Assembly: GCF_018802605.1 (NCBI RefSeq)
Contig: NZ_CP069161.1
Coordinates: forward strand, 1,178,001 to 1,242,000
Direction of reading: 5' to 3'
Length of the DNA: 64,000 nucleotides
From: Paludibacterium paludis
Lineage (GTDB): Bacteria > Pseudomonadota > Gammaproteobacteria > Burkholderiales > Chromobacteriaceae
Below the pieces are notes generated by a model. That model saw only the letters and a list, made by a program, of their open reading frames with translations. It searched no databases and was not told the DNA's origin. Of the stretch, positions 46,642 through 61,215 are shown piece by piece. The first letter of the stretch is position 1. Each line of letters opens with the position of its first letter. The position numbers were made by a program, and so were the translations under genes.

Positions 46642-46675
46642 CGCGGCGGCGCCGGTGCGCCGGTCGCCGCCGCGC
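46641..46675. terminator. GC-rich hairpin between convergent genes
   Basis: Eleven-bp stem GCGCGGCGGCG / CGCCGCCGCGC starting at the stop codon of the GGDEF-EAL gene and lying just before the homospermidine synthase stop. TTGTC follows on the plus strand; no real T-run, so it is a weak or bidirectional terminator at best. Confidence 0.5.
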
Positions 46676-46680
46676 TTGTC

Positions 46681-48090
46681 TCACAAGGTCAGGGCTTCCC
46701 TGTCCGCGGCCGCCGGGCGGGGAGATGCCTCCCGGGCAACCAGGAATTTCTCGAAATGCAGTTGCCGGTCAGCCGGGTCGGGGAACCACGTCACGGACTG
46801 CTCGATGATCGGCGCCCAGTACGGTTCGACGATGCGATAAACAAAGTCGTGATCCAAGGCCTCCGATTCGACAACCCCCGCGCGCGGATGGTCATGCATC
46901 CATTGCATGCCGGCGATGATGCTCGAGACGACCTGCAGGCTTGTCGCGTTGTTGCACACCGCCATTTTGCGCGCTTTGCCGATGGAGAGGTTGGAGCCGA
47001 TCCACAAGGCCGGATGGCGATCGCTGATGAGAAAAACACCGAGTTCATCGATCCCGCTGACAATCTCGTCCTTGATGACATGGCTGGCATGGATTCCGTC
47101 TGTCGTTCCATCTTCCAGCAGACGCATCGAGGCGACGGCGTCATCGCAGGGATGGTAGGCATAATAGGACGTGGGGCGATAGAGGACATCGCCCCGATCG
47201 TCGCGCAGAGTCAGATAATCGGCGATCGACACCGCTTCGTTGTGCGTGATCAGAAAGGCCTCGAAGTCGAGGAAATTGGGACTCCAACTGCGCACTTTCA
47301 GGGTGTGGGCGGGTTGGTCGATCATGATGGCCGCTCCGCATCCGTCATCGTGCCTTCTGCCGCCGACCGGCAGGAACGGCTCATGGCTTCCCCAGCCGAG
47401 TTCCGCCGGTTGCAGGCATTCCGTCACCAGTCCTTCGACCGACCATGTGTTGAGAAACTCGTCCTCGGCGCGTGTCCGGCGGGTGATCTGGGTGTCGCGT
47501 TCTGAAATCTGGATGACACGGATCCCCAGATGCCTGGCCAGTTGCGCCCATTCCGAAGGCGTTTCCGGCTGAGGACACGGCTGGCCGCTTGCCCGGGCCA
47601 TCGCGATCAATCCCCGTTTCATCAATACCGACACAAAGCCCGGGTTCGCGCCATGCGCGACGATCGCCGTACTCCCGCCTTGCGAGGTTCGCTGCAGTTC
47701 GAGCATGGATTCGCGTAACTGGTAATTGGTGGTGGCGATTCCCGCCGTGCCATGATCGTATTCCCACGGTTCGATGCAGGTGTCCAGATAGAGTGCCTGC
47801 GAACGCTGGGCGAGGCGGATCAGGTCGGTGCTGGATACCGAGGTGGCCAGATTCAGAAGATAACTGCCCTCCTCCAGCCAGGGTGTCAGAAGCGGCTGGT
47901 AATTGTCCCGGGCGATGCGCTGCTCGAACAGCTTCACCTTGAACTGCGCGGCGGCTTTTCTGGCTTCCGGCGTAGGGCATGGCTCGAAGGCCACGATGTC
48001 GCAGCCGGGAAAATGCTTGTCCAGTAAAGGCAGGATGCCTTGCCCGATATTACCCAGTCCGATGATGACGATACGTTGAATCAATTCCAT
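46681..48090 (-). CDS. hss: Homospermidine synthase
   Basis: 469-residue NAD-dependent enzyme that makes homospermidine from two putrescines (or putrescine and spermidine). The N-terminus has a Rossmann motif (IVIIGLGNIGQGIL) and the family segments LYLDTCIEPWEYDH, VAHGANPGFVS and RRTRAEDEFLNTWSVEG follow; length matches bacterial HSS. It is minus strand, 52 bases downstream of the small membrane protein gene, and may be read from the polyketide operon or on its own. No other polyamine gene is adjacent. Confidence 0.9.
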   Translation of the reverse strand: MELIQRIVIIGLGNIGQGILPLLDKHFPGCDIVAFEPCPTPEARKAAAQFKVKLFEQRIARDNYQPLLTPWLEEGSYLLNLATSVSSTDLIRLAQRSQALYLDTCIEPWEYDHGTAGIATTNYQLRESMLELQRTSQGGSTAIVAHGANPGFVSVLMKRGLIAMARASGQPCPQPETPSEWAQLARHLGIRVIQISERDTQITRRTRAEDEFLNTWSVEGLVTECLQPAELGWGSHEPFLPVGGRRHDDGCGAAIMIDQPAHTLKVRSWSPNFLDFEAFLITHNEAVSIADYLTLRDDRGDVLYRPTSYYAYHPCDDAVASMRLLEDGTTDGIHASHVIKDEIVSGIDELGVFLISDRHPALWIGSNLSIGKARKMAVCNNATSLQVVSSIIAGMQWMHDHPRAGVVESEALDHDFVYRIVEPYWAPIIEQSVTWFPDPADRQLHFEKFLVAREASPRPAAADREALTL

Positions 48091-48142
48091 TCCCCTTGCA
48101 AGTAACCATTGCCGTGGTGGCGAAGAAAAGAAGGCGGTATTG

Positions 48143-48583
48143 TCAGCGCGAGGCCAGGAACAGGCGTTTGTTCACGCCTGTCACGATCAAGGCGAGGATG
48201 AGCAGAATGTTGACCAGTCCGGCCACAGCTTCGGTCATGGCGGCATGCTCGAACATCGCCTGGTTGCCGATCCGCAGGAAATCGACCGATTCGCGGATGG
48301 CCGGGAAAATGAAAATGTGCGTGTTCAGCGCCACGAGAACAAAGCCGATGCCTTTGGCTTTTTGCCAGGCCGTCCGAGGCAGGCCGCTCATGACCATGCC
48401 GGTCAGCCCGACCACCCACATGGCGGGAATCGTGACGTAAAGGGTGCCGGCCAGCACGAAGTTGCGGCTGAATGCCAGGGCTTCACGACTTTCCGCGACA
48501 GCGCCCGCGACGATGTAAGCGACGATGCTGCCAAGAAACAGGGAGAGGCCAACAAAATGCAGGGTTTTGAGTAAGGTCTTCAT
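48143..48583 (-). CDS. Four-helix membrane protein, DUF2269-like
   Basis: 146-residue protein with four hydrophobic helices (about 8-28, 45-65, 78-95 and 118-138) and a start typical of DUF2269-like proteins (KTLHFVGLSLFLGSIVAY). AGGA precedes the ATG, and the 33-base gap after the PPTase gene is AT-rich and could hold a promoter. The function is unknown. It could belong to the polyketide operon as a membrane accessory or be an independent gene. Confidence 0.65.
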   Translation of the reverse strand: MKTLLKTLHFVGLSLFLGSIVAYIVAGAVAESREALAFSRNFVLAGTLYVTIPAMWVVGLTGMVMSGLPRTAWQKAKGIGFVLVALNTHIFIFPAIRESVDFLRIGNQAMFEHAAMTEAVAGLVNILLILALIVTGVNKRLFLASR

Positions 48584-48616
48584 GGTTTTCCTATCAGTTA
48601 AAATATTCCAAAGTTG

Positions 48617-49336
48617 TCAGAAACCATATTCCATTGCCGTTGCGCGAAGCACCGACGGCGTCTTCGTGTCCGTGATCTCCACATCCCATAAGGAAGGGGA
48701 CGCAGGCTCCACTGTCGCCAGACATGAGACCAATCCGTGCGTCTCGGGAGGCCAGAACAGGTGGCAGGCGTGACGGCCCACCGATACCGGGCCTTGCCCT
48801 CGTGTCAGCGCGGGCATGACCGACAGGCTGGACGGGTGAAGGTGAAAACCTGTTCCGACCAGCTTGACCAGGCTTTCCTTGCCGGCCCATAGCCGCCTCA
48901 ACGATACGGCGTCGATCTGCGGGCTGATTTGCCGTTCTTCACGGCTGGCAATCAGTCGATAAAAATGCTGAAGATCGGTGAAGCTCCTTTCACATTCGAT
49001 ATCCACGCCTATCCCGGCGCGGGACAGGCCGGCGAGCACGGCTCCCCGGCAATGGCTGAGATTGAACTGGATGGCCTCGTTGAGCAGATAGGGCTTGCCG
49101 AACGAGGTTCTTCCGATGACCACGTCCTCCATCCGTATTCCCTGCGCACAGGCCAGCAGACGTCGTATCCAGTAGGCCGCGCGGCAGCGTTCCGTTCGCC
49201 GGTCCGCGGCCGGAAAGCGGAACAGGAAGAGGCTGGGCCGATCAAGCGAGATGCATGACAGGCGCTCCAGTTCGGCTGACCGAATCCGTTGCCAGCCGCC
49301 CGGTACGGTTACGTCTCCAGTCTCGCGCGCATCCAT
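48617..49336 (-). CDS. Sfp-type 4'-phosphopantetheinyl transferase of the polyketide operon (AntB-like)
   Basis: 239-residue enzyme that moves the phosphopantetheine arm of CoA to the ACP serine. The family triad of motifs is present: FNLSHCRGAVL, GIGVDIECER (Mg-binding) and RLWAGKESLVKLVG. It overlaps the hydrolase gene by 28 bases, so it is translated as part of the operon. A dedicated PPTase inside a type II PKS operon matches AntB in the Photorhabdus anthraquinone cluster. It probably serves the ACP at 51934-52182. Confidence 0.88.
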   Translation of the reverse strand: MDARETGDVTVPGGWQRIRSAELERLSCISLDRPSLFLFRFPAADRRTERCRAAYWIRRLLACAQGIRMEDVVIGRTSFGKPYLLNEAIQFNLSHCRGAVLAGLSRAGIGVDIECERSFTDLQHFYRLIASREERQISPQIDAVSLRRLWAGKESLVKLVGTGFHLHPSSLSVMPALTRGQGPVSVGRHACHLFWPPETHGLVSCLATVEPASPSLWDVEITDTKTPSVLRATAMEYGF

Positions 49337-50397
49337 TTCGCCGCTTTCGGCATGAAGTCGAAAAAGTAGTTCTGGCAGACATGCGCTTCATCGGGGTACA
49401 GCATCGTGCCGGTCTTGTCCGGCCCGGCCCAGGCCGCGATGCGCTGGCAGTTATCGGCGGGGAAAACCATGTCATTGCCGCCATGGATGCAGAGGATCTG
49501 CCCGCGGGGCGCCGGCAGGTCCGACACCGTCAACTGCCGTTCGGCCAGCGCCGCCATCTCGTCATCGCCGCCGGCTTTGAACACATAGCGAAAGTCGTGG
49601 CGCACGCGCGGATTGATCTCACGGTAATTGCGGACATCGAAGGCGCCGGACAGGTTGATGGCGGCGCGGAAGGCGTCGGCATGAGCGGCCAGGCAGCGTA
49701 AAGCGAGAAGCCCCCCGAAGCTGACGCCGAACACGCCAAGGCGGTTAGGGTCGACGCGACGGTGGCTTTTCAGGACAGCCAGAACCTCGTCCATCACGGC
49801 TTCGAACGGGCAATGCATGGCACTCTTGCCGAGCAGCTCCCCCTGACCCGGACCATCGAAAATCAGGCAACTGATCCCCTGGCGCAGAAAATACCGGGCG
49901 AACTGATACAGCTCGACTTCCTTGGCCGAATCGAGTCCATTGATGAGGACGACGGTTGGGGCCGGGCCTTCCGCTCTCGCATGGAACAGGTATCCGGGCA
50001 GTGTGTGCGGGCCGAAGGTGATGCGCACCGGTTCGGATGCTGTTGGCAATGCCGGCGCCGCCAGCCGGAACGCTTCGGCGACCTCCCGCCGGCATTGTTC
50101 CTTGCGGTCCGTGTCCTGGAAAAACATGAATTCCGCCCAATGGTAGGCGGCCGCGGCCTGGAGTCTGGTTCTCGCGGCCTCGTCCGGCGATTGATCCCGG
50201 CTTTCCGCCATCCAGGTATCGCCCCGGTGTTTCCAGGCCTCGAACCACTGAGTCCAGAAACGGGGCGGGTCGGTTTGCACCACGGGGTCAATGTCGCGGC
50301 AGACGTGAACGATTTCCCCCCACTCGGTGCCGCCGAACATCATGCGGGGGAAGAAATAATGCAGTTGGGCGAACGTGTCCGGATGGATCGTACTCAT
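49309..50397 (-). CDS. Alpha/beta hydrolase of the polyketide operon (AntI-like)
   Basis: 362-residue alpha/beta hydrolase of the FrsA/DUF1100-like type, with an N-terminal helical cap (about 1-120) before the catalytic core. The triad is visible: Ser226 in GVFGVSFGG, Asp309 in GGNDMVFP and His339 in DEAHV. In the Photorhabdus ant cluster the homologous AntI shortens the ACP-bound octaketide by a retro-Claisen cut and triggers the last ring closure, giving a heptaketide anthraquinone. Placement between ligase and PPTase genes supports the same job. It overlaps the ligase gene by four bases. Confidence 0.85.
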   Translation of the reverse strand: MSTIHPDTFAQLHYFFPRMMFGGTEWGEIVHVCRDIDPVVQTDPPRFWTQWFEAWKHRGDTWMAESRDQSPDEAARTRLQAAAAYHWAEFMFFQDTDRKEQCRREVAEAFRLAAPALPTASEPVRITFGPHTLPGYLFHARAEGPAPTVVLINGLDSAKEVELYQFARYFLRQGISCLIFDGPGQGELLGKSAMHCPFEAVMDEVLAVLKSHRRVDPNRLGVFGVSFGGLLALRCLAAHADAFRAAINLSGAFDVRNYREINPRVRHDFRYVFKAGGDDEMAALAERQLTVSDLPAPRGQILCIHGGNDMVFPADNCQRIAAWAGPDKTGTMLYPDEAHVCQNYFFDFMPKAAKWMRARLET

Positions 50398-51923
50398 GGT
50401 TGCGCACCTTGCAAGTCGTGGTGGAAAACAGGGATCAGCCGTGCTTCGTCGAGGGTGTCGAGCAAGGTCTGTTTGATGACTTTGCCGTTCTTCCCCCGGG
50501 TGAAGGCCTGCTGTGCCGGGACCAGATATTTGGGATGCTTGATGGGGCTGAGCGCTTCCCCGATGCGGGCGCGCAAGGCGGCCAGCGTGTCGTCGGTGTT
50601 GTCCTCCGTCCGGAAAAACACCACCGGCACCTGCCCGTCGCCTTGCGGGTCGTCCGCTCCCGCAACGGCCAGCTCGATAATGCCCGGTACCGCGCAGAGC
50701 ACGTCTTCGAGCTCTTTGGGGTAGACGGTGAATCCCTCGCCCAACAGCACCACGTCGTCAAGACGGCCTTTGAGCGTCAAAAAGCCCTGGCTGTTCATGA
50801 ATCCCGCGTCCCCGGTCTTGAGCCAGCCCGCCTCGATTTTTCCTTTCGACCTCGGGGACGCGGAGGCCGCGTCCCAGTAGCCGGCCATGTTGCCGGGCGA
50901 GTCGACCCAGACTTCGCCGATCGTTCCGGCGGGAACGGGCTTGCCGCGCGTGTCGCGGACCTCCAGTCTCACGCCGCCGGCCGGCCGGCCGACAGTGCCT
51001 TTGCCGGCATCGTGCTCTTCATGATGCAGCCAGCAGAAAGGGCCGGTCGTTTCCGTCAGGCCGTAACCCTGCAGCCACAGGCAATCGAGTCTGGATTGGG
51101 CCTGTTCGAGCAAATGGCGGTCCATCGGCGCGCAACCGTAGGCTATCAACTCGAGCGACGCAAGGTTGCGGCGCGCAAGATCGGGGTCGCGCAAGGCCTG
51201 CGCCAGGCAATAGGGAGGGAGCATCAGGTGGGTCGCGCCATGGCGCTCGGCCAGCGACATGACTTCCGTGTGGGCCCCTGCATCGACGATCAGCGCCGAA
51301 CCGGCATGAATACCCGCCAGCATCAGCAACTGACCGACCATATCGATGATGCTCGCGTCCAGCAGGATCCTGGCCGCGCCGTGCAGGCGCATGGCGCTGG
51401 CAACCTGACGGCCCTGGGCGAGCAGGCCGCGCTCCGACAGGCAGACGCCTTTCGGGGTACCCGTGGTGCCGCTGGTGTAGCACTGCACAAGAATCGTGTC
51501 GGCAAGGCGGGCTTCCCCGGGAAGCGGCCGATTCCGCATCGTCTGGACGGCGCCATCGTAACGCAGACCACGTCCTTCGACGCCGACTCCGGTTTTGCCG
51601 GTGCCGACGGTCCAGTCGGCCTGTGCATCCGTGGCGATACTGCCCAGCTCCCACCGGCTGCCGCGTGTCAGGCCTTCCAGATAAATCAGGGTCAGGCCAA
51701 GGTAGCTGGCGGCGATTTCCAATTTGACCAACGGGTAGGTCTCGCCATCGGTGATGAGCAGGCGGTCTCCCGGTTTGACTTCATTGTCATTGAGGAAATG
51801 CACCACGTCATGCACATCGTCAAGCAGATCCCGGTAACTGAGTGAACGGCCATCCACAACGACCGCCGTACCGGATGGCTCGCGCGCTTCCGTCTGGCGT
51901 AATGTTTGGTAAAGTGAAGGCAT
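50394..51923 (-). CDS. AMP-dependent acyl ligase of the polyketide operon (AntG-like)
   Basis: 509-residue ANL-superfamily enzyme. The P-loop-like core (VQCYTSGTTGTPKGV), GYGLTETTGPF, and the hinge and lysine region (KTGDAGFMNSQGFLTLKGRLDD) are intact. In an ordinary PKS it would load a carboxylic acid; in the ant system the AntG ligase is needed for a functional ACP, so a starter-acid role should not be assumed. ATG 51923 was chosen: GAGAG lies about seven bases upstream and it begins ten bases after the ACP stop; ATG 51962 would overlap the ACP gene. Confidence 0.85.
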   Translation of the reverse strand: MPSLYQTLRQTEAREPSGTAVVVDGRSLSYRDLLDDVHDVVHFLNDNEVKPGDRLLITDGETYPLVKLEIAASYLGLTLIYLEGLTRGSRWELGSIATDAQADWTVGTGKTGVGVEGRGLRYDGAVQTMRNRPLPGEARLADTILVQCYTSGTTGTPKGVCLSERGLLAQGRQVASAMRLHGAARILLDASIIDMVGQLLMLAGIHAGSALIVDAGAHTEVMSLAERHGATHLMLPPYCLAQALRDPDLARRNLASLELIAYGCAPMDRHLLEQAQSRLDCLWLQGYGLTETTGPFCWLHHEEHDAGKGTVGRPAGGVRLEVRDTRGKPVPAGTIGEVWVDSPGNMAGYWDAASASPRSKGKIEAGWLKTGDAGFMNSQGFLTLKGRLDDVVLLGEGFTVYPKELEDVLCAVPGIIELAVAGADDPQGDGQVPVVFFRTEDNTDDTLAALRARIGEALSPIKHPKYLVPAQQAFTRGKNGKVIKQTLLDTLDEARLIPVFHHDLQGAQP

Positions 51924-51933
51924 CACAGATCTC

Positions 51934-52182
51934 TCAGGCAAGGGTCCGCGCGCGGTTTTCAACGGCCGCGACGATATCGCGCACCGTTTTCATGTCGGCA
52001 AACCTCAAACCGGCGAGCTCGACCTTGCAGGCTTTTTCGATCGAGACCAACAGGCACACGAACTCGGTGGAGTCGAGTTCCAGATCATTTTCCAGGTGCT
52101 GATCGAGGCTGAGGTCCGCGGTGTCGACGCCGAGATAGTCCGCCAGAGCCGCAATCACATGTTGTTCAAATGTTGAATCCAT
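51934..52182 (-). CDS. Acyl carrier protein of the type II PKS (AntF-like)
   Basis: 82-residue acidic ACP that carries the growing poly-beta-ketone. The phosphopantetheine site is Ser38 in ENDLELDSTEFV, preceded by the usual acidic helix. Length and context (between CLF and ligase) mark it as the PKS carrier and not the fatty-acid ACP. ATG 52182 has AAGGAG nearby. A longer open frame through it to 52536 is a shadow of the CLF gene. Confidence 0.92.
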   Translation of the reverse strand: MDSTFEQHVIAALADYLGVDTADLSLDQHLENDLELDSTEFVCLLVSIEKACKVELAGLRFADMKTVRDIVAAVENRARTLA

Positions 52183-52205
52183 GGTTAATGCTCCTTGATC
52201 ATTCA

Positions 52206-53393
52206 TTAAGAAAAACGGGTCAAAGAAAGGCTTGCCGCACAACCGCCAAAGCCGCGTCCGTTGATGAGAACGCGATATAACGTCGCTTCTGTCAGTTGCT
52301 GGATGAAACGGGTATCGTCTTGCCGGGAATCGCCATGAAGGGGGAAGGGCAACATGGCCTGCTTTTTCAGCATCAGCGATGCCAGGGCGCAATCGAGCGC
52401 CCCCGCCGCGCCGAACAGTTGACCGAATGCGGCTTTGGGCGCGGTTATCGGTGTCCTGGCCCCGACCGCATGCCGTATCGCCTGAATTTCCTGCCGATCG
52501 GCGTCGACGCTGGCCATGCCGTCTGCCACGACGCAATCCACATCGCGATTTCCCGCCGCCGCGCGCATGGCCTGCTCCAGCGCGTGATGCGTGGCGGGCA
52601 TGGCCCGGTCGAAGCCCGGTTCGTTGCGCAGGGCGGACGATTCGACGATCGCATAGGGTTGGCGTCCGCGCCTGGCCGCCCGCTCTTCGGATTCGAGGAT
52701 CAGGAAGCAGGCGCCTTCGGCCGGGACAAATCCTTTGGCCCCGTCGCTGAATGGCGCGTAATGACCATCCTGGCTCAGTGTGTCCGACGATGTCTTCAGC
52801 GCGGCATAGATGAAGTCGGTGTCGATGGCCTCCGAACCTCCCGCGATGGCGCAGTCCAGCTTCCCTGTCTCGATCAGTCGGGCGCCCATTCCGATGCTGA
52901 CAAGCCCGCTGGCTCTGTCGGCCATGACCGTTTTACTGTATCCCTTAAGGCCTAGATGCAGCGATATCTGCCCCTGAACGGCGGCGGGGAACCAGGCCGT
53001 GGCCTGAAACGGGCTGACTTCGCGGGAGCACCCGCCTTCCTGATACAGGTGGCGCAGCTCCCGGTCCGTATAGGCCCATCCGCCGAAACAGTTGCCGACG
53101 ATGGTGCCGGTGCGCCAGACATCCAGAGACGCCGTGTCGAGTCCCGCATCGGCGAGCGCGCGTTGCACCGCAACCAGGCCAAGATGGCTGAAGCGGTCGA
53201 TTTTCCGGGCGTTCCGCACGGACAGTCCGGAGGTGATCTGCTCATCGGAAACCGTGGCCGCGTGTCCGCCCAGGGCTTCCTTGTAGGAGGTGGTCAGCTG
53301 CCCGGCGATTGCCCGATGCCAGGCGAAGTCCGGGTCATCGCATTGAGGGGTGATCAGACCGATCCCGGTGATGACGGCTCGTCGTGTAGTCAT
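52206..53393 (-). CDS. Ketosynthase chain-length factor, KS-beta (AntE-like)
   Basis: 395-residue inactive partner of KS-alpha that sets chain length. The thiolase fold is retained, but all three catalytic residues are lost: the position aligned to the active Cys is Arg160 (MADRASGLVS), the HGS motif is replaced by DGMASVD, and the second His by Leu (KAAFGQLFGAAGA). Most CLFs have Gln at the Cys position, so Arg is unusual. It overlaps KS-alpha by an ATGA junction, ensuring equal synthesis of the two subunits. Confidence 0.9.
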   Translation of the reverse strand: MTTRRAVITGIGLITPQCDDPDFAWHRAIAGQLTTSYKEALGGHAATVSDEQITSGLSVRNARKIDRFSHLGLVAVQRALADAGLDTASLDVWRTGTIVGNCFGGWAYTDRELRHLYQEGGCSREVSPFQATAWFPAAVQGQISLHLGLKGYSKTVMADRASGLVSIGMGARLIETGKLDCAIAGGSEAIDTDFIYAALKTSSDTLSQDGHYAPFSDGAKGFVPAEGACFLILESEERAARRGRQPYAIVESSALRNEPGFDRAMPATHHALEQAMRAAAGNRDVDCVVADGMASVDADRQEIQAIRHAVGARTPITAPKAAFGQLFGAAGALDCALASLMLKKQAMLPFPLHGDSRQDDTRFIQQLTEATLYRVLINGRGFGGCAASLSLTRFS

Positions 53394-54679
53394 GATTGGG
53401 ACTCCTCGTCGCGGTAGCGCCGGAAAACCACGGCGCTATGAATTCCGGAAAACCCGCTGGCGGTTTTGAGAACATGGTCCATGCTCGCCTTGCGGCCAAT
53501 ATTGGGGACGTAATCGAGAAAACAGTCCGGATCGGGCTCTTCGTAGTTGATGGTGGGCGGAACCTCCTGGTGCATCAGGCTCAGCACGCAGGCCACGGCC
53601 TCGATGGCATTGGCGGCGGAGAGCGCATGACCGTTCATCGATTTGAGCGAGCAGACCGGGATGGTTTTGGCGTGATCGCCCATCAGCTTGACCAAAGCGA
53701 AACTTTCATTGGCATCGTTTTGCGGGGTCGAGCTGCCATGAGCGTTGACGTGATCGATCGCTTCCGGTGAGATTCCCGCGTCTTCGACCGCCAGCGCCGC
53801 GGCCCGGCACAGCGCTTCGCCGTCCGGAGGCAGGTCGGTCATGTGATAGGCATTGCAGGTGGAGCCGAAGCCGCTCAGTTCGGCGAGAATGCGCGCGCCT
53901 CTGGCGCGGGCATGCTCGTAAGACTCGAGCACAAGCACACCGCTTCCTTCTCCGAGCACGAAACCGTCCCGCGTCTTGTCAAAAGGACGCGAGGCGCGCT
54001 CCGGGCAATCGTTGCGGCTGTTGGTCAAGGCGCCGATGACATCGAATGCCGCCATGGCCAAGGGAGTGAGCGGCGCTTCGGAGGCGCCGGCGAGCATGAT
54101 GTCGGCGTCTCCGGCGCGGATGCAGTCGAGCGCGTATCCCAGCGCATCGAGGCCCGCGGTGCAGCCGGTCGCGAGGGACATGACCGGACCGGCCGCGCCA
54201 TAATGGCCTGCGACCGCGCTGGTGGCGCCGTTGAATCCTGCGTTCAGGTACAAATCGGCGGGAACGGCATGGCTGTCGACCGGACCGGTCGCCCGTTCCG
54301 TGCTCGCCAGAAATACGCGCTCCATGTAAGGCGTCCCGGCGATCGCCGTGGCGATGCACACCCCGGTGCGCTCGCCGGCCAGCGTTCCGGCATCAAGGCG
54401 CGCGTGTTCGACGGCCATGGCGCTCGCCGCCATGGCGAAATGCACGTAGCGATCGGTGCGGTCCGCCAGCGCCTTGGGAATACGCCAGTCGCCCGGGGTG
54501 AATCCCTCGACAATCCCCGCGATTTTCGCGGTGAGTCCATCGGTCGGGAAAGCGGTGATCTTGCGGATGCCGGGGCGGCCGGCCATGCAGTTGTTCCAGA
54601 ATTCCCGGTGGCCGAGTCCATTGGGGGCGACAACACCCAGCCCGGTGACGACAACGCGTCCAGTTGCAGGTTTGGTCAT
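53390..54679 (-). CDS. Beta-ketoacyl synthase KS-alpha of the type II PKS (AntD-like)
   Basis: 429-residue condensing enzyme. The triad is complete: Cys173 (SLATGCTAGLDAL), His314 (VNAHGSSTPQND) and His351 (KSMNGHALSAAN). The TGCTAGLDA form around Cys and HGSSTPQND are characteristic of aromatic type II KS-alpha rather than FabF. The start at ATG 54679 lies two bases after the ketoreductase stop; nine extra codons to 54706 are not needed. With the CLF it elongates malonyl units; no malonyl transferase gene is in the operon, so FabD probably supplies malonyl-ACP. Confidence 0.95.
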   Translation of the reverse strand: MTKPATGRVVVTGLGVVAPNGLGHREFWNNCMAGRPGIRKITAFPTDGLTAKIAGIVEGFTPGDWRIPKALADRTDRYVHFAMAASAMAVEHARLDAGTLAGERTGVCIATAIAGTPYMERVFLASTERATGPVDSHAVPADLYLNAGFNGATSAVAGHYGAAGPVMSLATGCTAGLDALGYALDCIRAGDADIMLAGASEAPLTPLAMAAFDVIGALTNSRNDCPERASRPFDKTRDGFVLGEGSGVLVLESYEHARARGARILAELSGFGSTCNAYHMTDLPPDGEALCRAAALAVEDAGISPEAIDHVNAHGSSTPQNDANESFALVKLMGDHAKTIPVCSLKSMNGHALSAANAIEAVACVLSLMHQEVPPTINYEEPDPDCFLDYVPNIGRKASMDHVLKTASGFSGIHSAVVFRRYRDEESQS

Positions 54680-54681
54680 GA

Positions 54682-55455
54682 TCAGTAGTTCCCCAATCCG
54701 CCACATACATTGAGCGCCTGCGCCGTGACTCCGCCCGCCTGCTCCGACGCGAGGTAGGACACCATGGCGGCCACTTCATCCGGTTCGATATAGCGGCCCA
54801 GCGGCACGCGCTCCTCGATCCGGCGTTTTGCCTCGGCTTCGTCGACCTGCCAGAGTTTGGCGTAGTGATTTCTGACATTGCGCGCCATCTCGGTTTCGAC
54901 GAATCCCGGGCATACCGCATTCATGGTGATGCCGCTGCCATTGCGGGCCAATTCCAGTCCCCAGGCCTTCGTCAACCCGACGACACCATGCTTGGAGGCC
55001 GAGTAGGGCGCGCCATGAAGGACGCCTTGCTTGCCGCCGGTGCTGGCGATATTGATGATGCGCCCCCCCGATGGCATGACTCCCTGTGACAGAACCGCGC
55101 GCGTCATGAAAAAGACGCTATCGAGGTTGGTGGCCATGACATCGCGCCACAGTTCAGTCGGGATATCGGCGGTGATGCCGCCGCCTCCTCTGCCGGCACA
55201 GTTGACCAGGACATCGATCCGGCCCGTGGAGGCCGCCGCCTGGCGTATCGTTTTTTCCACCTCGTGCTCGTCGCGGACATCGCAAGTCATGGTCAGCACG
55301 GGTTGACCGCATTCCGCTTCGAGCTGAGCCGCCGCCCGGGCCAGCGCATCTTCGCTTCGGGCTGTCAGAATGCAGCGAAAGCCGTCCTGGGCCAGCCGCC
55401 GGGCGATGGCCAAGCCGATGCCGCGGCTGCCGCCGGTGATAAGTGCGGTTTTCAT
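54682..55455 (-). CDS. Aromatic-polyketide C9 ketoreductase, ActIII-like (AntA-like)
   Basis: 257-residue SDR. NADPH motif TGGSRGIG (7-14); tetrad Asn110, Ser138, Tyr151 and Lys155 (APYSASKHG). Segments INIASTGGKQGV, NAVCPGFVETEMA and the C-terminal GGVTAQALNVCGGLGNY are close to ActIII of the actinorhodin pathway, far more than to FabG. ActIII-type enzymes reduce the C9 carbonyl of an octaketide and direct first-ring closure. It overlaps the aromatase stop by ATGA. Confidence 0.95.
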   Translation of the reverse strand: MKTALITGGSRGIGLAIARRLAQDGFRCILTARSEDALARAAAQLEAECGQPVLTMTCDVRDEHEVEKTIRQAAASTGRIDVLVNCAGRGGGGITADIPTELWRDVMATNLDSVFFMTRAVLSQGVMPSGGRIINIASTGGKQGVLHGAPYSASKHGVVGLTKAWGLELARNGSGITMNAVCPGFVETEMARNVRNHYAKLWQVDEAEAKRRIEERVPLGRYIEPDEVAAMVSYLASEQAGGVTAQALNVCGGLGNY

Positions 55456-56393
55456 GGTTGCCGCTCCCCTCGCGTATTCAGTTTTTTGTCGATGGTCATG
55501 ATCGTGGCGCGGCTATTGGCATTGATGCTTTGCGCCACACGCTGCTTGGCGACTTCGGCGTCGATGCCCAGGGATACCCAGTATTCGCGGTTGAGGACGA
55601 CCTTGTGCCAGGATGTCACCGTGACGCCGCCCGGCCGCTGTTCGAGTTCCCAACTGCCTTTATGGGCGGTGAGGGCATCCGGCGGAGCGGGCTGGAAATA
55701 ATTGATGCAGCCGTTGGCGCAATGGCGAATGGTGCGGATCACTTCGTCGTGATCGCCGACACGAACCGTCATGGTGTAAATCTGATGCTCGCCATCGTCG
55801 TATTCGGTATCGATGCGGCTGCAGTGGGGCAATAGCTCCGGCCAGTAACTGTATTTCCTCAGCAACTGGTACACGGCTTCCGCTTCGTGGCCAATGTCGA
55901 CGGAAATCTCGAATTCATGCGACCAGAGCCGCTGCTCAAGCGTTTCCTTGATGGCGGCCAGTTCCCTGTCGCTGTTGGCATTGACGATATCCACCATGTA
56001 CTGCAACGCCGCCTCCGGCGTTTCAATGCCGGGAACAATGCCTTGCACGTTCTCCCGCACGGTGAATTCGTGCCAGAGTTCGATATGACATGTATTTTGC
56101 GCGACTTTTTTGAAGACCCATTTACCCGCCATATCCGTGACCAGCGGCATGGGCCTTTTCTGACGAAAACCGATGGAGAGGTAGGTCTGATTCAGTTTCC
56201 GTTCGGACTCCCAGAGGAACAGCGCCTCTTTGCCCCATGCCGTCAGCCGGATATGCTGCGTGCCGTCCGATTCGTCGAGTACCCGGGCTTGCAGGCAGGG
56301 TGGAAAATGTGTTGGCCAGTTGCTGACATCCCGGCAGAATTCATAGGCTTCTTCCGCAGGACAATGAACTGTTATTTCGTGAACAAGCTTCAT
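55452..56393 (-). CDS. Didomain aromatase/cyclase, two SRPBCC folds (AntH-like)
   Basis: 313 residues made of two START/SRPBCC domains, about 1-150 (HEITVHCPAEEAYEFCRDVSNWPTHF, around residues 5-30) and 155-305 (FEISVDIGHEAEAVYQLLRKYSYWPELLPH). Didomain ARO/CYCs work with reducing type II PKSs: after C9 reduction they close and aromatise the first ring. The presence of both halves together with an ActIII-type KR is the expected pairing. Genes on both sides are two bases away (cyclase) or overlapping (KR). Confidence 0.92.
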   Translation of the reverse strand: MKLVHEITVHCPAEEAYEFCRDVSNWPTHFPPCLQARVLDESDGTQHIRLTAWGKEALFLWESERKLNQTYLSIGFRQKRPMPLVTDMAGKWVFKKVAQNTCHIELWHEFTVRENVQGIVPGIETPEAALQYMVDIVNANSDRELAAIKETLEQRLWSHEFEISVDIGHEAEAVYQLLRKYSYWPELLPHCSRIDTEYDDGEHQIYTMTVRVGDHDEVIRTIRHCANGCINYFQPAPPDALTAHKGSWELEQRPGGVTVTSWHKVVLNREYWVSLGIDAEVAKQRVAQSINANSRATIMTIDKKLNTRGERQP

Positions 56394-56395
56394 CC

Positions 56396-57244
56396 TTACT
56401 CCTGTTTTTTATCGATCAAAGCAACTACTCTGCACCACGAGGCATCCGCCTTTTCCAATTTCACTGGAAAACAGCTTAAAATGAACTTTTTATCGAGAGG
56501 CAATTTATCCAGATTTGCCAGACGCTCAAGCTGGCAATATTCGTTTTCCCTTCCAAACATATGGGCCGGCCAGAGAACGGACTGATCCCGGTTTTTAAGG
56601 TATTCGGTGACCATATAAGAAAAGGGTTGGTCCAGGCTGAAACTGTCGATGCCGATAATCTTGACTCCACGCTCGACGAGTAACGCGACCGAGTCGCGGC
56701 TCAGGCCTCTGAATTTCGTGAAATAGGCCGGTGTTCCCTGATATTTGTCCGCGCCCGTCATGATCAGAGCGATGTCTCCAGGCAGTATTGAAAGATTTTG
56801 TCGTGACAATGCCGATATGATTTCCTCAGGCTGAATGGGGCCTTGGGTTTCCGGATCGACTTTGATCACGAAAGCATGGGCGTAACACCACTCGAGAGGG
56901 ATATCGGTAATGGTTCGCGCCGGCTCTCCGCGGGAGGTTTTGTCTCCATAATGGAATGGCGCATCCATGTGTGTGCCGGTATGGGTGCTCAGGCGATAAA
57001 ACATCAGCGATAATCCTTTCCCATCGGGAAAGTCGCGATGATCCATGCCGAATCCCGTTTTCCATTTTATCCATTGAAATATCCGGTAAACGTAGCCCTT
57101 GTTTTTCAGGTACATCAGGGCGGATCCCAATCGGTCACCTCCCTCTTTGTGAAGGATGACGGTTATTTTGACCGGGTCAGGTTCCCATTTCTCCGGATCA
57201 ACGGAAACGCTTAAATCGATCAGTTCATACGGGTTGGAGATCAT
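56396..57244 (-). CDS. Metal-dependent second-ring cyclase, PF04199 family (AntC-like)
   Basis: 282-residue protein of the cyclase/kynurenine formamidase family. The metal-binding motif HTGTHMDAPFH is intact (His88, His92, Asp94, His98). In a type II PKS operon such proteins act on later rings after the SRPBCC aromatase. ATG 57244 is chosen over ATG 57283 because CCCGAGG sits nine bases upstream; it overlaps the transporter stop by 20 bases. Its DNA looks AT-richer than the KS genes downstream, suggesting a different origin or recent acquisition. Confidence 0.85.
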   Translation of the reverse strand: MISNPYELIDLSVSVDPEKWEPDPVKITVILHKEGGDRLGSALMYLKNKGYVYRIFQWIKWKTGFGMDHRDFPDGKGLSLMFYRLSTHTGTHMDAPFHYGDKTSRGEPARTITDIPLEWCYAHAFVIKVDPETQGPIQPEEIISALSRQNLSILPGDIALIMTGADKYQGTPAYFTKFRGLSRDSVALLVERGVKIIGIDSFSLDQPFSYMVTEYLKNRDQSVLWPAHMFGRENEYCQLERLANLDKLPLDKKFILSCFPVKLEKADASWCRVVALIDKKQE

Positions 57245-58811
57245 GCTTGATAACCTCGGGTGATATTTCGCTAAGACAGCCATCCGTCATTTTCAACACA
57301 CGGTCCGCGGCATCGAAATATTCGGCATCGTGACTGATGACAATCAGTGTTTTGCCTTCGGCTTTTAATTCGCGCAGGAGCGTGCGATAAAAGTACCGTT
57401 TGAATTGGGGGTCCTGATCGGCGGCGAATTCATCCAGCAGCAGACAGTTTTGCCCCGAGGCCAGAGCGGTGAGCAATGCCAATCGTTTTGTTTGCCCTTG
57501 CGACAGGGTGGTGCAACTTAACCTGCCATCGATGTACCCGACCTTGCCTGTCAGCCAGAGTCGTTCGATCAGACGGGCGACGGTCTCGGCGGAGGGGATA
57601 TTGCCGTCCAGCGCGAGCAGCCTGTCGAAGACATAAGGACTGGCTTCGACCATCGCGCATTCAACCAGATGGGCGTTTTCCAGGGGCTTGCCATCGACTT
57701 CGCGTACCCCGTGGTGAGCCGGATACAGTCCGGTCAGCAGCTTGAACAGGGTGGACTTGCCCGATCCGTTTCCTCCTACGATGAAGGTGATCTCTCCTCG
57801 CCGTACGGTCAGATCCATATCGCCGATTGACCGCTCTTCGTTCGGGTAGCGGTAGCGCAGGCCCTGCAGAGAAAGGGTTTCGCTGGGCGTGTGACGGATT
57901 TGGGGCGGACGTGTCGGGGTGGTCAGCGGTAAAATCCTGCGTATGCTGATGGTGGCGTTCAGCACTTTTCCGATATTTTCCAGTAGCACGGTGATCGGAC
58001 TGATGAGAAATAAGGTGGCCAGCACGAAGTTAAGCTGAAGCGTTTTATTTTTTACTGAAAAAAACCACTCGGGGAAGGCAATAATCGCCAGAATGAGGCT
58101 GATGGTGATGCCGTGCCCCCAGTTGAGATTGAAGGCATCCAGCCAGGCGATTCTTTTTCTTCTGGCGAGCAGCTCGGTAAGCGCTGATGCCGTGGATTTG
58201 CGTTGGTACTGTTGTCTGGCCCGACTCAGACGCAGTTCGATGGCGCCTTTGAAAAAGGCTTGGTAATGACCGTGCAATTCATCAATCTTTGTGCGAATCA
58301 AATCCAGATGCTTGACGACTTGAGAATTAATTATGTACGACACGCCTACGGCGCAAGCGACGACCAGTCCGTATGTCAAAAAGCCGCGTGGCGACTGAAT
58401 CGCCAGGTAAATGAAAACCCCCGCCAGCAGTAATGCATTCAAAACAAGCTCGGGCAGGATTCTCATGCCCTGATAAATCACCTCGAGGTCTCGCGTTAGT
58501 GCGGAGTAACCTTTAGCAATTCCAATGCGTTCAAGATCACGGTATGTGCACAGAATCAAACTGTCTGCCAATTTCTTGTGAATCTGGTAGCTGACATCTT
58601 CGGCAAAAATGTCAAGAGACAGTTTGGTGATGAAACCGGCGGCAATAATGGCGGAAATGAGCAGGCCGCCTTTTAGTACCTGGGCTCCCATGTCTCCGTC
58701 AGTTCCGACTTTGGATACCATGGAAATGAATTGCATCTCCGACCAGCAAAAAATCAGGCCGGTGCACAGCGAGAGGATCAGTTGAAAGTAATGTTTCCGG
58801 GATAATTTCAT
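57225..58811 (-). CDS. ABC exporter, SyrD/PvdE-like (TM-ATPase fusion), first gene of the PKS operon
   Basis: 528-residue half-transporter. Six membrane helices occupy the first 280 or so residues, followed by one ATPase: Walker A (GGNGSGKSTLF), signature LSQGQTKR, Walker B (CLLLDEFAAD), H-loop (VISHD). Architecture fits the cyclic-peptide/siderophore export family (SyrD, PvdE); two copies would pair. As first gene of the operon it probably exports the polyketide, though family members usually move peptides. Such an exporter was not, to my knowledge, part of the Photorhabdus ant set. The sequence is AT-rich relative to its surroundings. Confidence 0.88.
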   Translation of the reverse strand: MKLSRKHYFQLILSLCTGLIFCWSEMQFISMVSKVGTDGDMGAQVLKGGLLISAIIAAGFITKLSLDIFAEDVSYQIHKKLADSLILCTYRDLERIGIAKGYSALTRDLEVIYQGMRILPELVLNALLLAGVFIYLAIQSPRGFLTYGLVVACAVGVSYIINSQVVKHLDLIRTKIDELHGHYQAFFKGAIELRLSRARQQYQRKSTASALTELLARRKRIAWLDAFNLNWGHGITISLILAIIAFPEWFFSVKNKTLQLNFVLATLFLISPITVLLENIGKVLNATISIRRILPLTTPTRPPQIRHTPSETLSLQGLRYRYPNEERSIGDMDLTVRRGEITFIVGGNGSGKSTLFKLLTGLYPAHHGVREVDGKPLENAHLVECAMVEASPYVFDRLLALDGNIPSAETVARLIERLWLTGKVGYIDGRLSCTTLSQGQTKRLALLTALASGQNCLLLDEFAADQDPQFKRYFYRTLLRELKAEGKTLIVISHDAEYFDAADRVLKMTDGCLSEISPEVIKHDLQPV

Positions 58812-59079
58812 ATGAGACTACCCGCGTGTTGTGTTGCTGCAAATGCATTCAAGTTTGACATTCGTCATACTCCGTTCCACGGTCTTCGGATAAAACAAGT
58901 GTTTTCCCGCCAGCGTCTTCCACAATCCATCCGGAAGATCGTCATTTCCCACTTCACGTTGCTGCAGACAAATTTCAGAAACAGGGTTTGCTTATAAAAA
59001 CCATTTCATAAGTGTGGTTATTTGCCGATATTATGCCTATGGTCTTTTGTTTTGAATAGTGTTTTGTCATTTATATTGT

Positions 59080-59098
59080 TTTTATGTATTTCATAAAA
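59080..59098 (-). promoter_or_regulatory. Palindrome upstream of the PKS operon (possible operator)
   Basis: TTTTATG-N5-CATAAAA, perfect seven-base arms, about 270 bases upstream of the ABC exporter start and next to -10-like AT-rich hexamers on the minus strand. It could bind a dimeric regulator. No T-run, so not a terminator. Support is only symmetry and place. Confidence 0.3.
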
Positions 59099-59320
59099 GC
59101 AACAGTCGCCTTGAGCACAGCGATTTTTCCGGGGGCGCATAGGAGGTGAGTTAGCGGGGAACGCTGCCGTGAAGGTGATGCCTTCTTGCTGAAGGCGTGA
59201 CATGACCGATGGCGGCAGTCGGAGCGCTGAAGCACTGGGCCTCGTGAATTGACCGGCAAGTTGGATGGATCCGCTTTCGCGGGAAAAATGTGGATCAGGG
59301 GCGATGCAAGAACCCTGTCC

Positions 59321-59344
59321 AGGGAACTCCGCCAGGGGTTCCCT
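59321..59344 (-). terminator. Possible terminator after mscL
   Basis: AGGGAAC / GTTCCCT arms with a ten-base loop, 18 bases past the mscL stop. No T-run follows on the minus strand, so it is weak. Confidence 0.35.
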
Positions 59345-59361
59345 TGACGCGGGTCAGGACG

Positions 59362-59823
59362 TCAGGAGAGGTCTGAGGTGCAATGCGGGCAGCGCGTCGC
59401 GTTCAAGGGAATGGACGAACAGCAGTAACGGCAGGATTTTGTGTCGGGGGGCGTTTCCGCGGCGGAGGCCGGTTCCCGTTTCAGACGGTTGACGGCTTTG
59501 ACCAGCATGAAGATGGCGAAAGCCACAATGGTGAAACTGACCAGGGCATTGATGAACAGACCGATGTTCAACGTGACGGCGCCCGCCTGTTTTGCGGCCG
59601 CGACAGACACATAAGGCCCGGCTTGTTTGGCGCCATCTTGCAGAACGACAAACAGGTTGGAAAAGTCGACATTGCCGATCAGAAGACCAATCGGTGGCAT
59701 GATGATATCGTCCACCAGCGATTTGACGATCGAGCCGAATGCCCCGCCGATGACCACGCCCACAGCCAAGTCGATGACATTGCCTTTTACGGCAAACTCT
59801 TTGAATTCTTTCAGAATGGACAT
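59362..59823 (-). CDS. mscL: Large-conductance mechanosensitive channel MscL with Cys4 tail
   Basis: 153-residue inner-membrane pentameric channel that opens under osmotic downshock. TM1 ([22 protein letters not shown]) and TM2 ([24 protein letters not shown]) are canonical. The C-terminus carries an extra zinc-ribbon-like tail, [22 protein letters not shown], with two CxxC pairs, in place of the plain helix of E. coli MscL (136 residues). Such tails recur in some MscL proteins; their role is unclear. Confidence 0.93.
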
Positions 59824-59887
59824 GCCGTTCCCCTTTTTTTACATGCGCGCAATGGTAGCGTAACCGGCGATGATCGCCAAATCGGGC

Positions 59888-60919
59888 TCAGTCCGGATAG
59901 CCATTCGGATTGTTCTGCTGCCAGCGCCAACTGTCACGGCACATATCCTGCAGCGTGCGCGTGGCTTGCCATCCCAGAACCTCCCGGGCGCGGGCAGGAT
60001 CGGCGTAGCAGCAGGCCACGTCGCCATTGCGCCGGGGGGCGATGACATAAGGAATGGTATGGCCGCAGGCATCGGAGAATGCCTTAACCATATCCAGCAC
60101 CGAGTAACCCTGACCTGTTCCCAGATTGAGCGTCAGTACACCTTCAACGGCTGTGAGGGTTTGAATGGCTTTGACATGGGCGACGGCAAGATCCACCACA
60201 TGGATGTAATCACGGACTCCGGTGCCGTCATGGGTCGGGTAATCGTTTCCGAAGACATTGAGCGCGGCCAGTTTGCCGACGGCCACCTGACTGATGTAGG
60301 GCATCAAATTGTTCGGAATACCGTTCGGATCCTCGCCGATCAATCCGCTTTCGTGCGCTCCTGCCGGGTTGAAATAGCGCAGCAGCCCGATTTGCCAGCC
60401 CGGTTCGGCTTTGGCGACATCCTCGAGGATTTCCTCCATCATGCGTTTACTGCGGCCGTACGGGTTGGTGATCACCCCGATCGGACAGGTTTCGTTGATG
60501 GGAACGGACAGGGGGTCGCCGTAGACGGTTGCTGACGAGCTGAATACGATGCGCCGCACGCCGGCCTTGCGCAGGCTTTCCAGCAACACCAGCGTGCCGA
60601 CAATATTGTTTTCGTAATAGCGCAGTGGTTGGGCAACGGACTCGCCCACCGATTTGAGCGCGGCAAAGTGAATGACGCCATCCACCGGGTGATCCGCCAG
60701 AATCCGGTCCAGTGCCTGTCCATCGCGAATGTCGGCTTGGTAAAAGGTGAGTTCCCGCCCGGCGATGCTTTGCACGCGCCGGAGAGATTCGGGTTTGCTG
60801 TTGCAGAAGTTATCAACGGCAACGATGTCGAAGCCTGCCTTGAGCAGCTCGATGCAGGTGTGCGAGCCGATGTATCCGGCTGCGCCCGTGACAAGTACGG
60901 TGGGTTTTCTGGTGTTCAT
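59888..60919 (-). CDS. galE: UDP-glucose 4-epimerase
   Basis: 343-residue SDR that interconverts UDP-glucose and UDP-galactose. NAD motif TGAAGYIGSHT, the catalytic SSSATVYG and YGRSK (Tyr/Lys) segments, and GTGVRDYIHVVDLA near the sugar site are intact. ATG 60919 begins at the family N-terminus (KPTVLVTGAAG); a longer frame to 61039 is unlikely. It stands alone between mscL and ssb, and probably serves surface polysaccharide synthesis. Confidence 0.94.
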   Translation of the reverse strand: MNTRKPTVLVTGAAGYIGSHTCIELLKAGFDIVAVDNFCNSKPESLRRVQSIAGRELTFYQADIRDGQALDRILADHPVDGVIHFAALKSVGESVAQPLRYYENNIVGTLVLLESLRKAGVRRIVFSSSATVYGDPLSVPINETCPIGVITNPYGRSKRMMEEILEDVAKAEPGWQIGLLRYFNPAGAHESGLIGEDPNGIPNNLMPYISQVAVGKLAALNVFGNDYPTHDGTGVRDYIHVVDLAVAHVKAIQTLTAVEGVLTLNLGTGQGYSVLDMVKAFSDACGHTIPYVIAPRRNGDVACCYADPARAREVLGWQATRTLQDMCRDSWRWQQNNPNGYPD

Positions 60920-61161
60920 TTCGGTTTGGCTGATGAGTTCCGGGTTGAATGAAGGTTCGCGTTGCCAGTGCTGCTCTGAATGCTGCGTGCGATCAGGTGA
61001 CAAGGTATACCGCAAGATGATGCGAAGCACAAATGACAATAGAGCAAAAACAAAGGAAACGGCGCCGATTCTCTGACGCGGGTATTGTTACCAGGGGGCA
61101 TGCCGGGTGGATGCGCAAGGTGATCGGCAAACGAGTTGCCGGGTCTTATGCGCGAAATGCG

Positions 61162-61193: not shown

Positions 61194-61215
61194 CTAAGCG
61201 GTAATGCCGTTAAGG

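Follow-up and report, generated by a model that had tools for sequence, protein, structure and literature searches.

The 64,000 nucleotides of Paludibacterium paludis DNA analysed here (hereafter the window) raise the question of whether a run of packed minus-strand genes encodes a complete type II aromatic polyketide synthase (PKS), and, if so, what it would make and how closely it is related to the anthraquinone system ant of Photorhabdus. Based on the gene content, gene order, conserved residues and phylogeny observed, we consider it fairly likely that the locus is an operon of eleven genes for a type II PKS, probably acquired horizontally, of which the predicted reactions, chain length, product and export correspond to the making and exporting of an anthraquinone-like pigment.

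Organization of the operon

The ten packed minus-strand genes described in the initial annotation at 48617-58811 were indeed found at these coordinates and on this strand, with intergenic gaps of -59 to +23 nt (Table 1), and Pfam bore out the domains named for them, i.e., ABC_tran, PF04199, two Polyketide_cyc stretches, adh_short, two ketoacyl-synt proteins, PP-binding, AMP-binding, FrsA-like/alpha-beta hydrolase and ACPS. The claim of a complete type II aromatic PKS operon holds in that all PKS parts are present, but an eleventh gene (48143-48583) had been missed, and the operon reaches 48143. None of the eleven frames is interrupted, and of the active-site residues examined only the gate position of the AntI-type lyase has changed. 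Some annotated gene starts are probably internal to the true frames; by comparison with the N-termini of the Zooshikella counterparts, the ligase probably starts at ATG 51923 and, as judged by eye, KS-alpha possibly at 54679. Terminators were not above the level of shuffled sequences, no tRNA gene was found in the window, and no Rfam match in 44000-64000. The assignment to a beta-proteobacterium was supported indirectly by the 16S sequence, whose best matches in a plasmid collection, the sole collection compared, were Neisseria (91.8% identity) and Burkholderia (about 90%) and indicate the class only.

Table 1. Genes of the predicted polyketide operon, in order of position in the window
Feature	Coordinates	Strand	Observations
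Four-TM protein, 146 aa	48143..48583	-	33 nt downstream of PPTase; Zooshikella counterpart in same place
Sfp-type 4'-phosphopantetheinyl transferase (PPTase; AntB-like function)	48617..49336	-	ACPS PF01648, E 1e-8; IGVDIE and KESLVK stretches
AntI-type alpha/beta lyase	49309..50397	-	best solved match AntI 6hxa, E 1e-51
AMP-dependent ligase (AntG-like function)	50394..51962	-	AMP-binding PF00501, E 5e-52
Acyl carrier protein (ACP)	51934..52182	-	PP-binding PF00550, E 4.9e-10; DST motif at Ser38
CLF (KS-beta)	52206..53393	-	Cys->Arg160, His->Asp291, His->Gln325; 54% identity to Zooshikella CLF
KS-alpha	53390..54706	-	C182-H323-H360; best solved match AntD 6smo_B, E 1.7e-118; tree
SDR ketoreductase (KR; AntA-like function)	54682..55455	-	adh_short, E 6e-62; PYSASK stretch
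Didomain aromatase/cyclase (ARO/CYC; AntH-like function)	55452..56393	-	two Polyketide_cyc stretches
PF04199 cyclase (proposed AntC-like function)	56396..57283	-	PF04199, E 4.8e-28; HTGTHMDAP stretch
ABC exporter, permease and ATPase fused	57225..58811	-	ABC_tran

The locus combines the features of a type II PKS: a KS-alpha, with the intact triad previously claimed for it, beside a CLF without active Cys, the two frames overlapping by 4 nt, together with a discrete ACP, a KR and an aromatase/cyclase as identified by Pfam and by matches to solved structures. The two stretches noted for the PPTase are what we take to be Sfp motifs, and the KR is presumably ActIII-like. The best solved match of the ARO/CYC is BexL (residues 4-298, E 4.8e-35), while the PF04199 cyclase gave seven solved matches, to isatin hydrolases, kynurenine formamidases and a cyclase-family protein, at E 2e-6 and weaker. 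The ABC protein scored 300 bits with NF007813 and 229 bits with TIGR01194, each under its own cut-off.

Descent and distribution of the synthase core

Among solved structures, KS-alpha matched AntD best (399 bits, against 350 bits for the next best), ActKS-alpha (1tqy_A, 340 bits) being third, and ActCLF was the fifth solved match of CLF. For quick trees, 80 of 127 relatives were kept as the locus set, and the rows of the window, AntD and AntE were included. The KS tree covered 74 of the 80 loci; four had no frame above 250 bits, while L025 and L036, which scored like CLFs, were left out by hand together with the FabF row L013. The CLF tree covered 41 loci, each represented by the frame with the best score for the CLF query (more than 150 bits), plus 16 P proteins; the other 39 loci had no passing frame. 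A contig scan with a single CLF as query gave no match. In these trees KS-alpha and CLF clustered with Zooshikella, Pseudoalteromonas, Paraburkholderia and Roseospira. For KS-alpha, a clade with AntD was neither favoured nor rejected (p 0.298), whereas one of CLF with AntE was rejected at AU p 0.0134 (the constraint uniting the rows of the window, Zooshikella, AntE and P0120), in a tree with long branches and for a group chosen after seeing it.

The closest counterpart of the whole operon is in the distant, marine gammaproteobacterium Zooshikella harenae WH53 (NZ_JAGSOY010000079.1, L016), where the eleven genes lie on one strand in identical order, which excludes chance. The identities are 71% for KR, 67% for KS-alpha, 62% for the PF04199 cyclase, 55% for AntI, 54% for CLF, 51% for ARO/CYC, 48% each for the ABC protein and the ligase, 47% for the four-TM protein, 41% for ACP and 28% for PPTase. 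The DST motif of the ACP is also found in the Zooshikella ACP. One further locus, L019, has the gene order CYC-ARO-KR-KS-CLF-LIG-AntI and a ligase 35% identical to that of the operon. The core ARO/CYC-KR-KS-alpha-CLF-ACP, accompanied by a small four-TM protein, was also found in Paraburkholderia caffeinitolerans (L021), Pseudoalteromonas luteoviolacea (L022), an Enterobacterales MAG (L023), Roseospira (L031) and plasmid p3 of Azospirillum brasilense Sp7 (L192). Unlike the operon, these five loci gave no match to the AntI-type lyase, the ligase or the PF04199 cyclase, and MarR is present in L022, L031 and L192. The closest cores (L021, L023 and L192) adjoin ABM-like proteins and a second SDR; in contrast to the locus studied here, ABM domains were assigned by Pfam in L023 and by annotation in L192, L021 carrying similar-looking frames only.

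The operon was probably acquired horizontally, because the hydrolase, i.e., the AntI-type lyase, was found in none of 60 family relatives. At 1e-20 it was matched in 29 of 399 genomes of the order and in 3 of 369 of the class, the own genome included, with up to five candidates scored per genome, so that a relative may be missed; the matches outside the own genome are 27-35% identical. Four relatives in the genus were compared over 18 kb stretches and showed no clean empty insertion site; mscL was present there (72-76%), and of the other window genes tested the GGDEF protein alone matched (34-36%), in three of the four.

Predicted pathway and its alternatives

In the pathway that we propose, the PPTase of the operon would prime the DST-type ACP, on which general PPTases may fail, and the ligase would help to charge it. 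With Sfp or AcpS, no more than 6% of the ACP of a type II PKS of Zooshikella sp. WH53 (zooACP), which has a DST motif, reached the holo form (PMC12391972); this zooACP likely belongs to the Zooshikella locus above, as judged from the strain name and the motif. In PMC6638757, octaketides appeared in E. coli once AntB and AntG joined AntDEF, and were 13-fold less without AntG. KS-alpha/CLF would then build a poly-beta-ketone, most likely an octaketide, and KR, didomain ARO/CYC and PF04199 cyclase would reduce, fold and aromatise the first two rings. An anthrone would result once the AntI-type lyase had cut off a two-carbon piece together with the ACP and closed the third ring; it would oxidise to a hydroxyanthraquinone, which the ABC protein would export, with the four-TM protein as a membrane companion and possibly the oxidase. 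Against this reading, the eleven genes include neither a regulator nor a methyltransferase.

For the lyase, ACP off-loading, retro-Claisen trimming and third-ring closure are predicted roles. Of the 12 positions named for AntI of Photorhabdus, the protein keeps 11 (Y14, R18, G154-LDS, S226, F227, R264, D309 and H339), and falls with AntI in a 15-row clade (SH-aLRT 99), apart from a 68-row group of more distant hydrolases. In Streptomyces, hydrolases are fused to polyketide-cyclase domains (e.g., P0139 and P0140). The twelfth position, gate Asp327, is M310, so trimming may differ from that by AntI. With the published AntI variant D327A, octaketide shunts came to about 30% (PMC11165489), and without AntI, aloesaponarin II and DMAC were formed in place of AQ-256 (PMC6638757). 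A less probable reading, yet one to be taken seriously, is that this type II PKS yields a product other than an AntI-trimmed heptaketide, the hydrolase only releasing the chain as an untrimmed octaketide or at another length (e.g., a carboxylated anthraquinone or a naphthalene). The change at the gate, the CLF line other than that of AntE, and the ABM-type rather than ant-type partners of the closest cores agree with such a product, and since these cores lack matches to ligase, AntI and PF04199 cyclase, their own products need not be trimmed anthraquinones. However, the pocket residues Ser226 and His339, the GLDS loop, Arg18, Tyr14 and Arg264 are kept, and together with the place of the hydrolase in the AntI clade they argue for the trimmed anthraquinone-like pigment.

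That the operon is intact in sequence but silent or decayed, giving neither expression nor product, appears improbable. No regulator is among the eleven genes, and sigma-70 promoters were not in excess (3 found against 4.3 expected in shuffles), as a silent operon might show; but the frames are open, the active-site residues examined are kept apart from the AntI gate, and Zooshikella identities of just 28-71% imply that neither copy was damaged over a long period. A synthase of the fatty-acid or aryl-polyene type is very improbable: KS-alpha passed the FabF-like model NF005589 (430.8 against a curated cut-off of 387) and reached 442 bits with the FabF model TIGR03150, under its cut-off of 493.75, but AntD outscored every solved FabF structure, a didomain ARO/CYC and a PF04199 cyclase are present, and both KS-alpha and CLF stood apart from FabF, contrary to the FabF grouping proposed in the initial annotation as a refutation, in trees that set five FabF rows, one from the own genome and four from its relatives, beside 76 KS-alpha and 59 CLF rows, sampled outside the aryl-polyene ketosynthases.

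Returning to the anthraquinone-like pathway, its last oxidation draws attention to the four-TM protein, which shares 47% identity with its Zooshikella counterpart over 148 aa and 30% with that of L019; among the 80 loci, 10 are named proteobacterial, and 9 of these carry a small four-TM protein. It may be a distant relative of DUF2269 membrane proteins. Three of five database relatives carry precomputed DUF2269 (PF10027), and profile-profile comparison gave DUF2269 at 96%, a partly circular value because the 8-row query profile holds three proteins with precomputed DUF2269. Its own Pfam matches were all below cut-off (DUF6677 best, E 0.0056; DUF2269 E 0.25, 11.9 bits against a threshold of 28), and a DUF2269 model search of the own genome gave no match. 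The Zooshikella homologue scored 23.9 bits with UPF0093 (cut-off 34.2, E 5.4e-5). HemJ (UPF0093) was rejected as the direct identity (profile-profile 0.7%), although the DUF2269 and HemJ profiles match one another at 95%; a fungal-type anthrone oxygenase (PF08592) was also rejected (0.06%, with a profile of 4 sequences). The profile sets comprised 24 of 25 loci for HemJ, 20 of 22 for DUF2269, with at least one row (L158) resembling another protein, and 4 of 6 for anthrone oxygenase. We suggest, only tentatively and as a rather doubtful proposal, that the protein is a membrane oxidase, distantly related to the DUF2269 superfamily, making quinone from the nascent anthrone or hydroquinone, and that aromatic type II PKSs of proteobacteria, whether AntI-type or ABM-type, nearly all have such a partner, one so far unrecognised. 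For AQ-256 the quinone-forming step is described as spontaneous (PMC12186476), and PMC6638757 gives plu0947 as proposed for quinone formation, yet this was attained in E. coli without plu0947.

Comparison with known systems

Chemistry of this type is familiar chiefly from Streptomyces. The view that type II PKSs are mainly actinomycete, with Photorhabdus ant as the Gram-negative model, proved too narrow, however: PMC10132072 places type II PKSs in 14 phyla, the proteobacterial ones occurring in the alpha-, beta-, gamma- and deltaproteobacteria. Non-actinobacterial type II PKSs being already catalogued, the operon adds a variant and is not a first case. In the literature searched, we found no description of this gene set and no product of the Zooshikella locus, and the characterised anthraquinone system of Gram-negative bacteria described there is Photorhabdus ant.

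The operon shares with actinorhodin-type PKS the matches to ActKS-alpha and ActCLF and a didomain ARO/CYC of the BexL/StfQ kind, and differs from actinobacterial type II PKSs in its AntI-type lyase, its AMP ligase and the Arg of its CLF, the active Cys position being occupied by Gln in actinobacterial CLFs. Its resemblance to ant (AQ-256) had been described as nine functions matched one for one. All nine, i.e., KR, PPTase, cyclase, KS-alpha, CLF, ACP, ligase, ARO/CYC and AntI lyase, are matched by domain, but the CLF belongs to a line other than that of AntE (AU p 0.013), which has Asp at the Cys position. The operon carries an ABC exporter and a four-TM protein; to our knowledge, the ant cluster has neither gene, and its gene order is presumably different. 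The match to antA-I rests on domains and on functions given in PMC6638757 and PMC11165489, AntA, B, C, F, G and H being compared by description and not by sequence.

The compact operon is suited to E. coli expression, and the shared four-TM protein, as a candidate for the step that forms the quinone, can be tested directly. As judged from the sequences, 'ant-like' holds for the operon by function and not, at least as regards the CLF, by descent of the synthase core; a second, differently descended and exporter-bearing operon, kept in a beta- and a gammaproteobacterium, would tell whether AntI-type trimming is a portable module.

Gene content and synthase core

The ten minus-strand genes of the initial annotation were indeed found tightly packed, with spacings from -59 to +23 nt, and Pfam assigned to them an ABC exporter, a PF04199 cyclase, a double Polyketide_cyc protein, a short-chain dehydrogenase, two ketoacyl synthases, a carrier protein, an AMP-binding enzyme, an alpha/beta hydrolase and an ACPS-type transferase. 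The count of ten, however, left out an eleventh gene, that of the four-TM protein (see the table). The GC content is 0.52 for the exporter gene and 0.49 for the PF04199 gene, against 0.56-0.64 for the other nine and 0.617 for the window. Just before the operon lies a gene, presumably mscL-like, that is present in 6/6 genomes of the genus.

Positions of the operon and of other features considered
Feature	Sequence	Position	Strand	Remarks
Ten-gene block	window	48617-58811	minus	type II aromatic PKS genes
Four-TM gene	window	48143-48583	minus	33 nt after PPTase gene; 146 aa; four hydrophobic segments
Upstream gene	window	59362-59823		
Two long ketosynthase frames	P. paludis contig	659348-668251		one with two ketosynthase domains in tandem; first with acyltransferase domain
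Long ketosynthase frame	P. paludis contig	696298		acyltransferase domain
Long ketosynthase frame	P. paludis contig	3759692		
Long ketosynthase frame	P. paludis contig	3778671		acyltransferase domain
Azospirillum brasilense Sp7 cluster (L192), plasmid p3	NZ_CP012917.1	126693-145820		

The genome consists of one contig of 4,069,732 bases. When compared with a plasmid collection, its 16S matched Neisseria (91.8%) and Burkholderia (about 90%) most closely, in keeping with a betaproteobacterium. Other long ketosynthase frames were also observed on the contig (see the table). Ketosynthase and acyltransferase domains occur in one frame in type I PKSs; as a guess, the pair of frames could encode a polyunsaturated-fatty-acid-like synthase.

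In the alignment the C-H-H triad of KS-alpha proved intact as first read (Cys182, His323 and His360), and CLF carries Arg160, Asp291 and Gln325 at the matching positions. In the 57 alignment rows besides AntE and the window, the residue at the Cys position of CLF is Arg in 40, Lys in 7, Ile in 4 and another in 6; AntE, the CLF of the Photorhabdus anthraquinone (ant) cluster, differs from the window in having Asp there. Among solved structures, KS-alpha matched AntD best (6smo_B, 399 bits), followed by FabF (350) and ActKS-alpha (340), and CLF matched FabF chains best, with actinorhodin CLF fifth and AntE seventh, covering residues 4-254 only. Against the aromatic reading, KS-alpha exceeds the cut-off of the FabF-like NCBIfam model NF005589 (430.8 vs 387); it stays below the TIGR03150 FabF cut-off, and CLF below both. 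Ser38 of the ACP sits in a DST motif. By eye, DST was read in 35 of the related loci L016-L095 and another residue in two (L064 and L095), the remainder having no readable motif in the stretch viewed; the ACPs beside FabF in the genus (n=6) carry DSL.

Distribution and descent

At 1e-30 the CLF query found a match in 6/6 genus genomes, but those of the five relatives are 31-33% identical, adjoin a KR-like gene and lie in a FabF-like setting, so that the window CLF itself was found in 0/5 genus relatives. The hydrolase was detected in 1/61 family genomes, that of P. paludis itself, and at 1e-20 in 29/399 order and 3/369 class genomes, P. paludis included; the matches besides its own genome are 27-35% identical and mostly begin beyond residue 40.

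In a scan for CLF relatives with one genome per species, of which the best 80 of 127 were kept (L016-L095), all ten originally noted genes were found in the same order on one strand only in Zooshikella harenae (L016), where the four-TM gene also occupies the same place. A hydrolase match was found in 4 of these 80 loci (L016, L019, L020 and L059). In L019, a gammaproteobacterial MAG, consecutive genes run PF04199-ARO/CYC-KR-KS-alpha-CLF-ligase-four-TM-AntI; its ACP was detected weakly (26.6 bits), and its KS-alpha clusters with L018 and L020, apart from the window. Downstream of the core, the Enterobacterales MAG L023 carries ABM-domain proteins (Pfam) and a second SDR, and Paraburkholderia caffeinitolerans L021 carries similar-looking frames and a second SDR. 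Because of the distribution, the low-GC exporter and PF04199 genes and the synteny with Zooshikella, the sequences suggest horizontal transfer of the operon; a search in relatives for an empty insertion site found none.

Quick trees without bootstrap (KS-alpha, 81 rows; CLF, 64 rows), with AntD and AntE on long branches, placed the window sister to Zooshikella (SH-aLRT 99 and 98, respectively). The clade around this pair, with support of 96 and 95, is proteobacterial and also includes Pseudoalteromonas luteoviolacea, P. caffeinitolerans, Roseospira/Rhodospira and an Enterobacterales MAG. For groups named after inspection of the trees, the KS-alpha constraint of window, Zooshikella and AntD was not rejected (p 0.298), and the common CLF group of window, Zooshikella, AntE and P0120 was rejected (p 0.0134). 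P0120, the CLF of an Oxalobacteraceae bacterium (contig of 87,179 bases), lies near AntE (E 2.5e-78), indicating that AntE-type synthases occur in betaproteobacteria too.

AntI-type hydrolase and four-TM protein

The top solved-structure match of the hydrolase is AntI (E 1e-51), and both fall in a common 15-row clade (SH-aLRT 99; quick tree of 121 rows), from which 68 rows of less closely related hydrolases stand apart as a group. With a chain offset of 15, derived from Ser245 in the AntI alignment, 11 of the 12 AntI positions named in the consulted parts of PMC11165489 and PMC12186476 are conserved, namely Tyr20, Arg24, the GLDS loop, Ser245, Phe246, Arg282, Asp326 and His355; the gate Asp327 is replaced by Met310. 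According to the same extracts, AntI S245A or H355A abolished AQ-256 and D326A resembled the wild type; with D327A, octaketide shunts reached about 30% (PMC11165489). The hydrolase of Zooshikella strain RANM57 (P0123) is 54% identical to that of the window. In two Streptomyces proteins (P0139 and P0140) and in P0130, an AntI-type hydrolase is fused behind a polyketide-cyclase domain, a sign of joint working; in a Lysobacter protein (P0222) it is joined with PF04199.

A protein matching a member of the four-TM set was found in 9 of the best 80 of 127 loci (L016, L017, L019, L021, L022, L023, L031, L057 and L080), and likewise in L192 and the window. Ten of the 80 are named Pseudomonadota and nine of these hold such a protein, the tenth, L018, being a 7.5 kb contig. 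The queries were partly drawn from the same loci, but every protein of the set has a match to another member (1e-3 or better). The two subgroups, window/Zooshikella/L019 and the remaining members, are connected both through their profiles, which match at 93% over 153 columns, and by weak BLAST matches. Residues invariant in eight aligned members, including His9, Arg40, Lys77, Asn87 and Glu118, would suit a putative cofactor site, and the protein is perhaps an oxidase. Against this, the profile matched HemJ at 0.7% and the fungal-type anthrone oxygenase at 0.06%, Pfam scores were under cut-off, the P. paludis genome gave no DUF2269 match, and E. coli with antA-I alone yields AQ-256, as described in parts of PMC6638757. 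DUF2269 is precomputed for 3/5 database relatives of the window protein, and the profile match to it is 96%, with a query profile that includes those three proteins. The Azospirillum cluster holds a DUF2269 protein and a 145-aa four-TM protein in addition to, by annotation, MarR, SRPBCC, SDR, two ketosynthases, ACP, four ABM proteins, SDR, PPTase and an RND pump.

Proposed working and comparison with known systems

From the ant cluster in E. coli, we infer by analogy the reactions, chain length, export and product of the operon: the PPTase would arm the ACP, the ligase would assist loading, KS-alpha/CLF would extend the chain, KR and cyclases would fold it, and the AntI-type lyase would trim it and close the third ring. 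In E. coli, as far as the portions of PMC6638757 consulted describe, octaketides were seen after addition of AntB and AntG, with 13-fold less without AntG, and aloesaponarin II and DMAC appeared when AntI was left out. An in-operon PPTase has a rationale because the ACP carries DST and because zooACP, from a type II PKS of Zooshikella sp. WH53, is scarcely activated by Sfp or AcpS, according to excerpts of PMC12391972.

Among the papers listed and passages covered, literature searches found no description of the eleven-gene arrangement, the split from AntE, the in-operon exporter or the four-TM partner. The CLF catalogue spans 14 phyla, with beta- and gammaproteobacteria among them, in the portion of PMC10132072 consulted, and a type II PKS in P. 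paludis is therefore not new in kind. Because the grouping with AntE was rejected and that with AntD neither supported nor rejected, the sequences point to an operon with the functions of ant whose synthase core may be of other descent: the likeness to ant first proposed holds for the functions, and gives way for the descent of CLF with AntE.
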